Of a stretch of DNA of 64,000 nt, positions 55,669 to 61,075 are shown piece after piece; position 1 is the first letter of the stretch; each line of letters begins with the position of its first letter. Location: contig NZ_CP139960.1 in NCBI RefSeq assembly GCF_034424215.1, positions 2,294,001 to 2,358,000 on the forward strand, given 5' to 3'. Source of the DNA: Niabella yanshanensis. Its GTDB lineage: Bacteria; Bacteroidota; Bacteroidia; Chitinophagales; Chitinophagaceae. A program made the translations under genes and the position numbers. The notes under the pieces were generated by a model. That model was not told the DNA's origin, did not search any database, and saw nothing but the letters and a program-made list of their open reading frames with translations.

Positions 55669-56778
55669 TTATGTTCCCTGTAAAAAGCTGTTGCTGATAT
55701 ATTTCGCCACCTGTGCCAGGTCTTTGGTTTCTTCAAAAATAGCCAGCTGCCGGTCTGCCCCTGTGCCATTCTCTAATATTTTATGAACATAATCGATCCG
55801 GTGTCTGCTACCCAAATGGGGTATAACGGGGTCTACAAAATCAAGCAATTCGTATATAAGCGCACGGGTATTCACTTCTTCTTCTTTACCAAAATCAATC
55901 AAATAGCCATCCAGCCCATACCGGCTGGCGCGCCATTTATTCTCATTGATCAACGCACGTGAATATTGTATATAGTTGAGGTTTTTGCTGCGCAGCATGT
56001 AAATGCGTGCACATATAGCCTGGAATAAGGCTGCAATCGCAATGGTTTCATCAACCGTCATCGGGATATCACAGATTCTGAATTCTACCGTGTTGAAGAA
56101 GGGGTGCACCCTCAAATCCCACCAGATCTTTTTAGCATTATCAATACAATTGGTCTTGATCAGCATTTTCACATAATTGTCGTAAGCTTCAATACTCTCA
56201 AAAGCATCCGGAATACCGGTACGCGGAAACTTGTCAAAAACCTTGGTCCGGTAAGATTTATACCCCGTTGTACGACCTTCCCAAAAAGGAGAGTTGGTGC
56301 TCAAGGCAAAAATATGGGGCAGGAAGTAACGGGTAGAATTAGCAATGTGATTGGCCAGCTCCCTGCTTTCCATTCCTACATGTACATGTAGACCAAAAAT
56401 GAGATTGCTACGCGCCGCTTCCTGTAATTCGGCAATAATTTCATTATAGCGCTGATGATCCGTGATCAGCTGTTTTTCCCAATGACTAAAAGGATGCGTT
56501 CCTGATGCACCTAAGGTTAATCCGAGGTCTCCTGCGATATCGTGTATCGTTTTACGCAGCAAGGAAACATCTTTGTGCGCCTCATCAATGTCCTGGCAAA
56601 TATCCGTGCCCACTTCCACTACAGCCTGGTGCATCTCCGCCTTTACTTTATCCTTGATGGTTTTTTGGCCTTCCTGAACGATACGTTGCTCATGGCTTTT
56701 CAGCTCAAAAGTTTCAGGGTCCAACACCATGTACTCTTCCTCTACACCCAGTGTAAATGTTTTATAATTTAAGACCAT
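55669..56778 (-). CDS. YbdK-type carboxylate-amine ligase
   Basis: A 369-residue protein of the glutamate-cysteine ligase 2 (YbdK) family, which joins a carboxylate (often glutamate) to an amine with ATP. N-terminal signature FTLGVEEEYMVLDPETFEL (about 8-26), then FGLHVHVG near 128 and FRICD near 230. No GshB-type gene follows, but an ATP-grasp ligase is encoded just upstream on the same strand with an esterase divergent from it, so this may start synthesis of a gamma-glutamyl or similar compound. The substrate pair is unknown. Confidence 0.83.
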   Translation of the reverse strand: MVLNYKTFTLGVEEEYMVLDPETFELKSHEQRIVQEGQKTIKDKVKAEMHQAVVEVGTDICQDIDEAHKDVSLLRKTIHDIAGDLGLTLGASGTHPFSHWEKQLITDHQRYNEIIAELQEAARSNLIFGLHVHVGMESRELANHIANSTRYFLPHIFALSTNSPFWEGRTTGYKSYRTKVFDKFPRTGIPDAFESIEAYDNYVKMLIKTNCIDNAKKIWWDLRVHPFFNTVEFRICDIPMTVDETIAIAALFQAICARIYMLRSKNLNYIQYSRALINENKWRASRYGLDGYLIDFGKEEEVNTRALIYELLDFVDPVIPHLGSRHRIDYVHKILENGTGADRQLAIFEETKDLAQVAKYISNSFLQGT

Positions 56779-56784
56779 TTGAAG

Positions 56785-56912
56785 AATTTGCTAATGTGAT
56801 AATTAGCTAATATGCTAATGTGAAAATGTTGATTATCGCGTACAAGGGTACCGCATATAAAGCGCTTTTACCAAGTCAGCAGTAGCACATCATCAAATTA
56901 GCAGATTGGCAT
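56785..56912. repeat. GCTAATGTG-type array between the two ligase genes
   Basis: GCTAATGTG/GCTAATATG occurs at 56790, 56806 and 56814; the far end of the gap contains the inverted form (AAATTAGCAGAT near 56895). No terminator or promoter was recognised in this gap. Confidence 0.5.
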
Positions 56913-57851
56913 TTATTTTCCTGCACTCTGTTTTACGTATTCACCCCAGGTAAGATTATCGCCGCCATTATTGGCCAATGCTTTTTCAATAGCGAAACTG
57001 GCGGCGGTCTCTACTACCCACTCGAAGTTTTCGGCACCTACGCTGGCTATATCCGCGTCGGGAGCAGGGTTGCAGAAATCGATGGCGTAAGGAACACCAT
57101 CACGCAAAGCCAGTTCAACTGTATTGAAATCGTAGCCCAGGTATTTATTAATCTTCAAAACGATATCTGTCATTTCTTTCAGCTTCTCTTCTGTTGGTGC
57201 AAAGTCTGCCTTATAACGCAAATGATGCGGATTGCGTGGTTCATAAGGCATAATACGCACATGCTTACCACCGATGCAATAACAGCGATAATACTCTTCA
57301 AAAACGATCTCTTCCTGCAGCAACATTACCAACTGTCCCGTTTCGTTGTGTTTTTCAAAAAACTCATCCATGGTATTCAGCTTGTACACGTTCTTCCAGC
57401 CACCACCGGCAAAGGGTTTCATATAAGCGGGAAACCCAACCTCTTCAAAAATTCCCTGCCAATCTAAAGGATAAGACAGGTTGCTGAACGAGTCTGCACT
57501 GGTATCATCCGGCATTTCGTTAGAAGGCAAAATGGCTGTTTTAGGTACAGGCACACCTATCCGGGTCATCAGGCAGTTATTGAAATATTTGTCATCGGCG
57601 CTCCACCAGAAAGGGTTATTGATAACAGCAGTTCCCGTTAAAGCCGCATTCTTCAACCAGGTGCGGTAAAATGGCACGTCCTGCGATATACGGTCGATGA
57701 TTACAGAGTAACCACTACCCACGCCCTGCAGGGCCTTATCAATTTTTACGGGTTCGGCAATAACGCCTTCAACGTTCTTACTATTCACCCTACTCACAAA
57801 AGCTTCGGGAAACGATCTCTCCTTTCCGTGCAGAATACCGATTTTTTTCAT
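56913..57851 (-). CDS. ATP-grasp ligase, unassigned substrate
   Basis: A 312-residue ATP-grasp protein. The central ATP site is seen in FPAYMKPFAGGGWKNVYKL and LVMLLQEEIVFEEYYRCYCIGG; the metal site is suggested by NTVELALRDGVPYAIDFCNPAPDAD near 245-270. It does not match GshB or D-Ala ligase closely. Start ATG 57851 is chosen, 8 codons inside the open frame. With the YbdK-type gene 134 bases downstream it likely adds a second building block to the same product. Confidence 0.78.
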   Translation of the reverse strand: MKKIGILHGKERSFPEAFVSRVNSKNVEGVIAEPVKIDKALQGVGSGYSVIIDRISQDVPFYRTWLKNAALTGTAVINNPFWWSADDKYFNNCLMTRIGVPVPKTAILPSNEMPDDTSADSFSNLSYPLDWQGIFEEVGFPAYMKPFAGGGWKNVYKLNTMDEFFEKHNETGQLVMLLQEEIVFEEYYRCYCIGGKHVRIMPYEPRNPHHLRYKADFAPTEEKLKEMTDIVLKINKYLGYDFNTVELALRDGVPYAIDFCNPAPDADIASVGAENFEWVVETAASFAIEKALANNGGDNLTWGEYVKQSAGK

Positions 57852-57937
57852 GTTTAAATTAGTTTGTTGGTACAATAATTATGGTGCGGTTATTTATATG
57901 GTCTTCAAAATGTTGGTGATTAAAAATACTTTGCTAT

Positions 57938-57968
57938 CAAATATATTTTTTTAAATGATATAAACAAA
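57938..57968 (-). promoter_or_regulatory. Promoter (TTTG-N19-TATATTTG) for the ligase genes
   Basis: On the minus strand TTTG (57968-57965), 19-base spacer and TATATTTG (57945-57938) match both consensus elements. Transcription should begin near 57931, giving an ~80-base leader. Confidence 0.7.
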
Positions 57969-58044
57969 AATTGTTTCTGATCAAATATTAAACATTAATT
58001 AAAACAGAAATTAATAATTAAATAATATTAAAAATACATTTTAC

Positions 58045-58052
58045 TATTTTTG
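58045..58052 (+). promoter_or_regulatory. -7 box (TATTTTTG) abutting the esterase start
   Basis: Perfect TAnnTTTG only five bases before the ATG at 58058, suggesting a very short or absent leader. No -33 element seen. It lies divergent from the promoter at 57938-57968. Confidence 0.45.
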
Positions 58053-58057
58053 ATTGA

Positions 58058-58867
58058 ATGGAAACTGCAGCCGAATTAGAATTGGTTACCGATACCCTAA
58101 TCACATCATCAACATATTTAAAAAGAGAAGTTACACTTAGCTTATTTCTTCCCAAAAATGTTGTCAACCCGGCAACAATCAGTTTGCTGCTGATCAATGA
58201 CGGACAGGATATGCCCGCTATGGGATATGACAAAATTCTTCACGATCTATACCATGAAAATGTCATTCATCCGGTACTGTCTGTGGCAATCGCAGCCGGC
58301 AATGAGAGAGCTCAGGAATACGGCGTAGCCAAAAGGAAAGATTATCTTGGTCGTGGCGCAAAAGCCGGCGCCTACAGCAAGTTTATCCTGAAAGAATTAC
58401 TCCCCCTTATTAAAGAAACCTACCAGGTTCCTGAATTCAAAGAAATTGCTTTTGCCGGGTTTTCTTTAGGGGGACTAAGCGCTTTTGACATGGTTTGGAA
58501 TCATCCGGATGTATTCTCCAGGGTAGGCGTTTTCTCCGGCTCGCTCTGGTGGCGAAGCGTGGACCAGCATGATAAAAAATACGATGATAACAAGCATCGT
58601 ATTATGCAGCAGCAAATACGGAAGGGCAGCTATGCGCCCGGCCTGAAATTCTTCTTCGAATGCGGCAAACTGGATGAAAGCGGAGACCGCAATAATAATG
58701 GCATCATTGATTCAATTGATGATACGCAGGACCACATCAAAGAGCTGTTTGCCAAAGGTTATGGCCCCGAAGATATTACTTACCTGGAGCTAGATGAAGG
58801 CAAACATGATGTAGCAACCTGGGGCCTGGCGATGCCTGCTTTTTTAAAATGGGGATGGGGCAAGTAG
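58058..58867 (+). CDS. Esterase (alpha/beta hydrolase, Esterase D/Fes-like)
   Basis: A 269-residue alpha/beta hydrolase with the nucleophile elbow GFSLGG (Ser136) and a C-terminal HDVATWG with the catalytic His (about 253). A loop near 220-240 reads GDRNNNGIIDSIDD, an EF-hand/dockerin-like Asp/Asn-rich calcium-loop pattern. No signal peptide, so cytoplasmic. It is divergent from the ATP-grasp/YbdK genes with both promoters in between, so it may process or release the ligases' product. Confidence 0.83.
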   Translation: METAAELELVTDTLITSSTYLKREVTLSLFLPKNVVNPATISLLLINDGQDMPAMGYDKILHDLYHENVIHPVLSVAIAAGNERAQEYGVAKRKDYLGRGAKAGAYSKFILKELLPLIKETYQVPEFKEIAFAGFSLGGLSAFDMVWNHPDVFSRVGVFSGSLWWRSVDQHDKKYDDNKHRIMQQQIRKGSYAPGLKFFFECGKLDESGDRNNNGIIDSIDDTQDHIKELFAKGYGPEDITYLELDEGKHDVATWGLAMPAFLKWGWGK

Positions 58868-59004
58868 ATTTAAAGTTTAAGATTCAAGGTTCAAGATTCA
58901 AGGTTTAAGGTTTAAAATTTATGATTGAAGGATTATGGTTTAAAGTTTGAGGTTTGAAGCTGTTTATAGAACTTTGAACTTCTAAACATTGAACTTTAAA
59001 CTTC
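58868..59004. repeat. GGTTTAA heptad array with inverted distal end
   Basis: Starting right after the esterase stop, about 13 units of a strict 7-base register (consensus GGTTTAA/GATTCAA) run to about 58958. After a short spacer the complement of the same unit (GAACTTT, TTAAACT) follows to about 59003. The array forms the whole gap before the YyaL gene. Confidence 0.7.
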
Positions 59005-59008
59005 AGAC

Positions 59009-61075
59009 ATGCCCAACGCACTTATCAATGAAACCAGCCCTTACCTCCTGCAACATGCGCACAACCCGGTAAACTGGTACCCCTGGGGAGAGGAAGCGTT
59101 GCAGAAAGCCATAGCCGAGGACAAACCGATTTTGGTTAGCATTGGTTATGCAGCCTGCCACTGGTGTCATGTAATGGAAAGGGAAAGCTTTGAGGACGAA
59201 GCAACAGCAGCGTTGATGAATGAACATTTCATCAATATCAAAATCGACCGGGAAGAAAGACCAGACCTTGATCATATTTATATGGACGCTGTACAGGCCA
59301 TGGCGGGTAGCGGAGGCTGGCCCTTAAACGCATTTCTTACCCCCGGTAAAAAGCCTTTTTATGGAGGCACTTATTTTCCTCCCAAAGCAGTAATGAACCG
59401 GCCTTCCTGGAAAGAGGTATTAACGGCAGTATCAGATGCCTTTAAAAACCAGAGAGCCGACATCGAGGACCAGGCTAACGGACTTACACAACATTTATTC
59501 CAGGCCAACAGCTTCGGCATTAACGCCAACGAAGGGGCTATGAAAACAGATCAGATAGATATGGCCTGCGAAAACCTTTTGAAGCAGGCAGATCAGCAAT
59601 GGGGCGGATTTGGAGCAGCGCCTAAATTTCCACAAACATTCTCCATTCAATTCTTATTACGCTATTACACATTTGAAAAAGAAAGAAATACCCAGCTGGC
59701 GGAAGACGCGTTAAAACAGGCTTTACTCAGCCTGGATAAAATGATCGAAGGGGGCATTTATGACCAGATCGGCGGAGGTTTTGCCCGCTACTCAACCGAT
59801 CCTGAATGGCTGGCGCCCCATTTTGAAAAAATGCTCTATGATAACGCGCTGCTTGTAACCACCCTAAGTGAAGCTTATGCCATTACCAAAAATGAATACT
59901 ACAAGAGAACCATTGAACATACATTAACATTCGTTGAGCGTGAGCTATTAGACCCCTCCAATGGTTTTTATGCAGCACTCGACGCAGACAGCGAGGGTGA
60001 AGAAGGCAAATATTATGTTTGGCAGCTGGAAGAGGTTCAGGAGTTACTGGGACCTGATGCAGCTGTGTACTGCGACTATTATAATATATCAGCAAACGGT
60101 AATTGGTCCGAAGGGACTTCATCGGAGGAGCATAAAAATATCCTGCGCATACTGGAGCCTCTCCCTGTATTTGCTGCTAATCGTCAATATAAAATAGAAG
60201 ACTTACAGCTACTACTGGATCAATGCAATGCTAAACTGCTAAAGGCAAGAGAAGAACGCATTAAACCTGCTTTGGATGACAAGATTATTTTGAGCTGGAA
60301 CGCTTTAATGAACACAGCTTACAGCAAGGCTTACGCAGCAACAGGCAACAAACAATACAGGCAAAAAGCCATCAGCAATATGGAGTTTTTACTATCTGCT
60401 TTTCAAACACCAGAGGGTAACTGGCAACACGTATGGAAAAACGGAACGGCGAAGTACACTGCTTTTCTCGACGACCATGCCTACCTTATCCAGGCGCTGC
60501 TACAGTTGCATAAGATTACAACTAACAGGGATTACCTGGTTCGCGCGAAAGAGCTTTGCGAAAAAGTGATTGCCGGCTTTTCAGAGCCAGACGGCTATTT
60601 TTATTATACACCTGAACAGCAAACCGATGTTATTGTACGCAAAAAAGAGGTATACGACGGCGCTACCCCCAGCGGCAACTCGGTGATGGCTCAAAACCTG
60701 CTGGAACTAGGACTTCTTTTAGATCAAAGAGAATGGCGGGAACGTTCTTTTCAAATGACGAAGGGCTTAAGTACTGTTGCGGTTAAATACCCCACCTCCT
60801 TTGGGGTATGGCTGGCGGCTGCTTACCAGCAAATAACAGGAACCAAAGAAATAGTGCTAATGGGTAACTTTGAAAGCGCACTACGTGAATTGCTGGCACA
60901 GCCTTTATTTCACAGCGTTATCATGGCCGCACGCCAACCTGACGAGAGCTTCCCGCTTTTAAAAGATAAAACAACAGACCAGGAACTCGCACTGTTTTTA
61001 TGCGAGAACTACGCCTGTCAACGTCCTGTATTCTCGGTTAACGATTTATTGAAACAATTGTACCAGGATGGCTAA
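59009..61075 (+). CDS. YyaL/DUF255 family protein (thioredoxin-like plus alpha/alpha barrel)
   Basis: A 688-residue protein of the YyaL/SSP411 family. N-terminal thioredoxin-like domain with [15 protein letters not shown] and CHWC (Cys50, Cys53), [24 protein letters not shown] near 98-121, then a large (alpha/alpha)6 domain similar to N-acylglucosamine epimerase folds ([14 protein letters not shown] near 490). Function is unknown; role in redox or sugar metabolism is proposed. It overlaps the next gene by 8 bases. Confidence 0.92.

Follow-up and report, generated by a model that had tools for sequence, protein, structure and literature searches.

The window analyzed here, a 64,000-nucleotide stretch of the Niabella yanshanensis genome (contig NZ_CP139960.1, positions 2,294,001 to 2,358,000; the host genome is a single contig of 5.54 Mb), carries three neighboring genes that encode two predicted ligases and a hydrolase. 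A YbdK/GCS2-family carboxylate-amine ligase (YbdK; window 55669..56778, 369 aa) and a RimK-fold ATP-grasp ligase (Grasp; 56913..57851, 312 aa) lie on the reverse strand, and an esterase/alpha-beta hydrolase of family PF00756 (EstA; 58058..58867, 269 aa) is encoded on the forward strand. All three are open frames, Grasp being read from a conserved ATG at 57851; the mechanical open reading frame (ORF) begins further upstream, at a TTG (57875). A sequence-only reading of this stretch had proposed that the three genes make and release an amide metabolite, and its gene inventory holds, with family matches for YbdK and the esterase. The proposal of a biosynthetic trio stands in part: the genes are a conserved unit with two different types of carboxylate-amine ligase, but they are not the whole: they belong to a larger conserved set that also comprises a class-I glutamine amidotransferase-like protein (GAT), a further ligase-like protein, F4, and often a second esterase, EstB.

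YbdK scored above the curated cut-offs (in brackets) of PRK13515 (520 bits; 371), TIGR02050 (299 bits; 176) and PF04107 (204 bits; 21), and matched the PDB structure of ybdK, 1r8g (E 2.2e-51). Its score against PRK13516, the model named for the YbdK family, lies under the cut-off (254 bits vs 425). The GhExE signature of the GCS2 family, as given in excerpts of PMC2588565, is present as the Mg/ATP motif GVEEE at residues 11-15. EstA reached 90.1 bits against PF00756 (cut-off 22), and its nucleophile elbow (Ser136, within GFSLGG) and His250 are each kept in 97% or more of 72 sequences; no export signal was seen on inspection by eye. The enterochelin esterase Fes was considered as an identity for EstA and rejected (PRK10439, 46.5 bits vs 222).

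Grasp is more divergent. At E 0.01 it matches no Pfam family, and its only NCBIfam matches at this threshold (rimK_fam, LysX_arch and MptN_Meth) are all below cut-off, the RimK family TIGR00768 at 32.2 bits against 143.4. The GshB and Ddl models are not among these three matches, and we take the NCBIfam library to contain a GshB model; the earlier statement that this protein is neither GshB nor Ddl thus holds as far as these matches at E 0.01 reach. Searched by sequence against the PDB, the single protein gave four matches with E values of 0.17-0.99 only, and a profile gave weak matches of biotin-carboxylase type and to Ddl (best E 5.8e-5). An AlphaFold2 model of moderate confidence (pLDDT 74.5) places its nearest folds among RimK, ArgX/LysX, Ddl and graspetide ligases, with a Z of 18.1 to RimK (5zct_A) over 260 residues (root-mean-square deviation, rmsd, 3.5), Z 16-17 to LysX/ArgX, and Foldseek TM values of about 0.55-0.6 to the RimK-type fold. 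Among ten homologues, K145, G149-G151, E246, D258 and N261 are invariant. Membership of the R2K clade of ATP-grasps was rejected, the homologue at locus L023 scoring 18.9 bits against a cut-off of 26.2; neither 'bacteroidetes' nor 'COG2170' occurs in the main text of PMC4431377.

The trio is conserved. Relatives of the locus were picked by the ATP-grasp, and in the best 80 of 568, Grasp, YbdK and EstA occur together in 73 loci; some of the seven lacking the full trio are short stretches or stop at the edge of a contig. In 76 of these 80, EstA and Grasp are divergent, with EstB lying between them in three and other ORFs in one. Among the matches listed, the closest named loci belong to Niabella, with ATP-grasps 88-93% identical. 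A sample of 149 genomes of the order includes 18 listed as belonging to the same family, and 16 of these have a Grasp orthologue, which YbdK adjoins in 16/16 and EstA in 14/16. The two without EstA beside Grasp have it on another contig: in G130, Grasp lies close to the end of its contig (position 214,300 of 214,650) and the other contig carries EstA with a piece of EstB, and in G144 EstA is likewise elsewhere. In genome G020 the ATP-grasp is represented by a relative of just 36% identity and the other families are absent; G034 lacks the ATP-grasp as well as the other families. The trio is a conserved unit that looks biosynthetic, and the refuting outcome considered beforehand, that the genes would not be conserved together, did not materialize.

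In many relatives these genes belong to a common operon, EstA<->EstB-Grasp-YbdK-GAT-F4. The order EstB-Grasp-YbdK-[GAT or M29-type peptidase]-F4, often with a divergent EstA, recurs in many families of the phylum. Layouts were tallied over 76 loci that were chosen by hand and are partly special cases, so that they are not a random sample (genome G176 is counted twice, as L210 and L226, and G222 and G424 contribute two loci each). All six genes are present in 11 of the 76, with EstA divergent in ten of these, and all but EstA in five; EstB-Grasp-YbdK-F4 was found in eight, and EstB-Grasp-CPg-GAT, where CPg denotes a CP_ATPgrasp-like gene, in nine. Nine of the eleven kinds of same-strand neighbor pair in these loci show median gaps between -6 and 41 bp, lengths that depend on mechanically picked start codons, and because these gaps are short the gene sets look like operons. 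Two genomes of the same family as the window's (G119 and G081) carry F4, GAT, YbdK, Grasp and EstA in one stretch, with an amidohydrolase gene between GAT and YbdK. A PF07969 amidohydrolase occupies this place in two genomes of the family (L177 9237-10862, L178 8640-10463); it was not seen elsewhere in the gene strings, although no search was aimed at PF07969. Other families found beside the set are sporadic, the commonest occurring in 7/81 loci. The genome of the window is a partly dispersed version of the set: the trio lies at 2.35 Mb, GAT at C1:1738594 and F4 at C1:5433106, the latter two as single open frames.

The families also co-occur genome-wide. Across the 149 genomes of the order, Grasp was found in 50, GAT in 49, F4 in 50 (including one fragment), EstA in 44 (with one weak case) and YbdK in 33; Grasp and GAT are common to 48 genomes, as are Grasp and F4. 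A phylum-level sample of 296 genomes, in which genome-wide counts cover Grasp, F4 and GAT, contains Grasp in 108, F4 in 92 and GAT in 70. Both Grasp and F4 are present in 89 of these, Grasp without F4 in 19 and F4 without Grasp in three; the corresponding numbers for Grasp and GAT are 69, 39 and one. Fisher p values for Grasp and F4 are 4e-34 at the level of the order and 3e-52 at that of the phylum, values that ignore relatedness. Physical linkage within 10 kb was seen for Grasp-F4 in 47/89, Grasp-GAT in 46/69 and F4-GAT in 40/55 genomes. Since roughly one in three of the phylum genomes sampled has Grasp (108/296), a common metabolite is likely.

F4 is a protein of about 397 aa. The copy at L023 matches no Pfam family at E 0.1, that of the window's genome matches only DUF2971 and CP_ATPgrasp_2 at E 1, both below cut-off, and the only PDB match of an F4 profile is YgiC at a non-significant E of 0.19. 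Structural modeling of the homologue in L112 (pLDDT 84) gave full-length alignments to YgiC (Z 25.1, rmsd 3.4) and YjfC (Z 24.1, rmsd 3.7) at 14% identity, followed by the synthetase part of GspS/amidase (Z 23.1), eukaryotic glutathione synthetase (about 22), Cp1B (21.6) and trypanothione synthetase (21.2). A putative gamma-glutamylcysteine synthetase followed at Z 11.2, unpermuted ATP-grasps reached at most 7.2, and the Foldseek TM is moderate (about 0.55). F4 is therefore predicted from this model to have the permuted ATP-grasp fold of GspS, YgiC and eukaryotic glutathione synthetase. According to excerpts of PMC12568646, YgiC and YjfC are peptidylpolyamine synthetases and Cp1B forms pseudodipeptides. 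In one metagenome contig (L103 11049-12219), two overlapping frames together make up F4, the result of either a frameshift or an assembly error.

Where a genome has Grasp and GAT but lacks F4, CPg adjoins Grasp in 15/15, as detected with a profile seeded by two of the loci that it then matched, both among the 15. These proteins measure about 450-475 aa and lie between Grasp and GAT (L208 7632-9050, L209 7937-9292), marking a second type of cluster in F4-less genomes. Of the two seed proteins run against Pfam, one exceeds the cut-offs of the circularly permuted ATP-grasp families PF14403 (32.5 bits; 32) and PF04174 (27.8 bits; 23.1) and the other falls below. YbdK was not seen in the 15 CPg stretches, which are mostly 7-8 kb long. 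A permuted ATP-grasp thus seems to take the place of F4 in these genomes, or of F4 and YbdK jointly.

GAT exceeds the PF00117 cut-off of 22.8 with 27.0 bits for the copy in the window's genome and 35.2 for that at L023. Its residues C111, H214 and E216, which we take to be the Cys-His-Glu triad of a class-I glutamine amidotransferase, are invariant in 12 sequences, and the gene is separated from F4 by a median of 6 bp (23 pairs). In four clusters, from four families and from genomes without GAT, an M29-type protein lies between YbdK and F4 in GAT's place; the Pfam assignment was run on one of these proteins (63 bits vs 27), and the M29 profile was built from the four loci that it then matched. 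F4 directly follows YbdK in 12 loci, ten of them in genomes that have GAT elsewhere. Because a peptidase occupies the position of GAT in these four clusters, we read GAT as a hydrolase over an ammonia donor, and lean toward its hydrolyzing or recycling the product; this is a preference and not a finding. In proteobacteria, according to excerpts of PMC2588565, a different family of carboxylate-amine ligases neighbors a GATase-like thiol peptidase, and the excerpts propose that a glutathione-like peptide is formed. This pairing is a precedent for a ligase and a GATase-like enzyme in one set.

These data favor, with moderate confidence, a widespread Bacteroidota pathway to a small peptide amide made independently of ribosomes and of non-ribosomal peptide synthetases. 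YbdK would activate a carboxylate group, which is probably the one at the gamma position of glutamate, and join it to an amino acid, to which Grasp would add the next residue. F4, or the CP_ATPgrasp-like enzyme in other lineages, may then attach an amine to the C-terminus as a cap, and this amine could well be a polyamine. GAT, or the M29-type peptidase in some clusters, would cleave the product, and EstA and EstB may act on its ester or thioester forms. The amine cap, perhaps a polyamine, is proposed mainly because the predicted F4 fold matches YgiC/YjfC and Cp1B; that the cap is specifically a polyamine we put forward tentatively. A bolder version, that the product is a novel type of cofactor or signal, a polyamine-capped short gamma-glutamyl-type peptide built by chained ligases, turned over by the GATase-like or M29 protein and one or two esterases, and possibly a non-thiol counterpart of glutathionylspermidine or trypanothione, is more speculative still.

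Several observations weigh against this peptide amide pathway. Neither the L023 nor the window-genome copy of F4 has a GspS-family Pfam match, the resemblance being one of fold only. YbdK is optional, occurring in 32 of the 50 order-level genomes with Grasp, and Grasp stands alone in 12 of the 76 chosen loci. GAT is absent from 35 of the 89 genomes with Grasp and F4; 18 of these 35 were inspected, and the M29-type protein was found in four and not in the other 14. In two of those 14, G149 and G154, Grasp, YbdK and F4 occur together with neither GAT nor M29. Within the genome of the window, neither GAT nor F4 is linked to the trio, and an EstB orthologue was not found (best match 33%). The NspC route to spermidine was not recovered there either, the carboxynorspermidine decarboxylase model scoring 49 bits against 409; other polyamine routes were not searched. 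Homospermidine is presumably a trait of this bacterial family; no paper on it turned up in the literature searched.

Other explanations account for parts of the same evidence. The ligases could instead tag a protein or peptide, Grasp and the permuted ATP-grasp extending the end of a cellular protein and GAT or M29 removing the added residues. ArgX/LysX, which act on a carrier protein, are with RimK, Ddl and graspetide ligases among the nearest folds of the Grasp model, and peptidases accompany the ligases in some loci. RimK, moreover, adds glutamates to a ribosomal protein (excerpts of PMC10092738). We nonetheless regard tagging as unlikely: a dedicated small substrate protein was not seen, the gaps being tight in nine of eleven pair kinds, though ORFs below 90 aa were not searched. 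YbdK and GspS-fold enzymes of known function act mainly on small molecules. The same tight gaps leave little room for the precursor of a graspetide, a ribosomally synthesized and post-translationally modified peptide, beside Grasp, with the same limit on short ORFs. A compatible solute resembling N-acetylglutaminylglutamine amide would assign GAT a different role: it would free ammonia from glutamine, and a dipeptide produced by the ligases would be amidated with it. An intact class-I triad and the close adjacency of GAT to F4 fit this scheme, yet the 35 genomes lacking GAT and the four clusters with M29 in its place do not, and we think it a little less likely again.

The thiol that the sequence-only reading had offered as a product now looks less needed. 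A glutathione-like redox cofactor, with FrmB-type S-acyl hydrolases, would agree with the gamma-glutamyl:cysteine ligase activity reported for YbdK (Lehmann 2004). The window's genome, however, has a bshC-like gene (G000:C1:1706308-1707411; PF10079, 368 bits vs 27), so that bacillithiol is probably its thiol (bshA and bshB were not searched). PF00756 does contain S-formylglutathione hydrolases, but an S-formylglutathione hydrolase model is not among EstA's five NCBIfam matches at E 0.01, and further gene families do not recur widely next to the set; a thiol pathway is accordingly improbable. That the genes are coincidental neighbors with unrelated substrates could be argued from the optional YbdK and from the unlinked GAT and F4 of the window's genome. 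The trio's joint occurrence in 73 of the best 80 loci and the co-occurrence of the families at the levels of order and phylum make coincidence very improbable. A defense system was also considered and rejected, the six proteins of the set having no PADLOC match at E 0.001.

The proposed peptide amide pathway most resembles that from glutathione to glutathionylspermidine and trypanothione: both comprise a GCS2-family ligase, an ATP-grasp, a ligase of predicted or known GspS fold and possibly an amide-cleaving enzyme. Here, however, the first ligase belongs to the YbdK subfamily, the ATP-grasp has a RimK fold, F4 lacks a GspS Pfam match and esterases are added; the hydrolase is GATase-like or M29, unlike the CHAP amidase of GspS. 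The F4 model aligns along its whole length with E. coli YgiC and YjfC, but at 14% identity and with YbdK and a RimK-fold ligase as neighbors. Cp1B of the E-64 type pathway is, as is proposed for F4, a stand-alone ATP-grasp of glutathione-synthetase type on a route to an amine-capped amide; that pathway is fungal, and an adenylating amide bond synthetase makes its second bond. The window's YbdK shares membership of TIGR02050/PF04107 with E. coli YbdK, but falls in PRK13515, not PRK13516, and sits in a multi-ligase set. Grasp is predicted to share the fold of RimK, LysX and ArgX (Z 16-18), at about 14-17% identity and far under the RimK family cut-off.

A description of this gene set was not found in the open-access literature searched; an earlier mention is possible, for instance in the 2009 amidoligase survey of Iyer and colleagues. 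Its parts belong to known superfamilies, and the combination, together with F4 as a Pfam-less protein of predicted GspS fold, appears new within that literature. F4 would gain an assignment as a ligase of GspS/YgiC fold whose operon context is clear. The exchanges of a CP_ATPgrasp-like protein for F4 and of M29 for GAT allow the function of individual steps to be tested, and new biocatalysts for amide formation could come from the set.

The intergenic regions were inspected for control elements. YbdK and Grasp are separated by 134 bp (56779..56912), with imperfect 8/16-bp repeats at 56785-56819; same-strand Grasp-YbdK gaps elsewhere have a median of 21 bp (39 pairs), and co-transcription across the gap is possible. 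A 206-bp region (57852..58057) separates the divergent Grasp and EstA. The sequence-only reading had placed a consensus promoter there; the divergent region stands, and the promoter is weakly supported, as sigma-70-like sites show no clear excess (14 vs 9.6, sd 2.9, in shuffles). One match on the reverse strand, at 57938..57967 (TTG-N19-TATATTTG), fits TTG-N19-TAnnTTTG, which we take to be the Bacteroidota-type promoter motif, and is a weak candidate promoter for Grasp-YbdK; at least one match to the motif also occurred in 133/2000 shuffles of the region, and the whole window has nine.

Further features lie beyond EstA. Degenerate 7/14-bp AT-rich tandem repeats (TTTAAGG-like) occupy 58866-58959 and 58969-59003. 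Some families have an M17 leucyl aminopeptidase and a further ATP-grasp after EstA (L028 1179-4577, L184 1639-5120, L193 3715-7607; the M17 assignment rests on a Pfam run on the L028 copy), possibly a second module, and genes that by eye resemble those of glycogen synthesis lie near some of these stretches. In the window, EstA is directly followed by a PF03190 thioredoxin-domain protein (59009-61075, 688 aa), which also follows EstA in the same genus (L018, judged by position and sequence start); a shorter PF03190 protein lies near the cluster in L187. The proximity of PF03190 proteins to these genes is probably due to chance.

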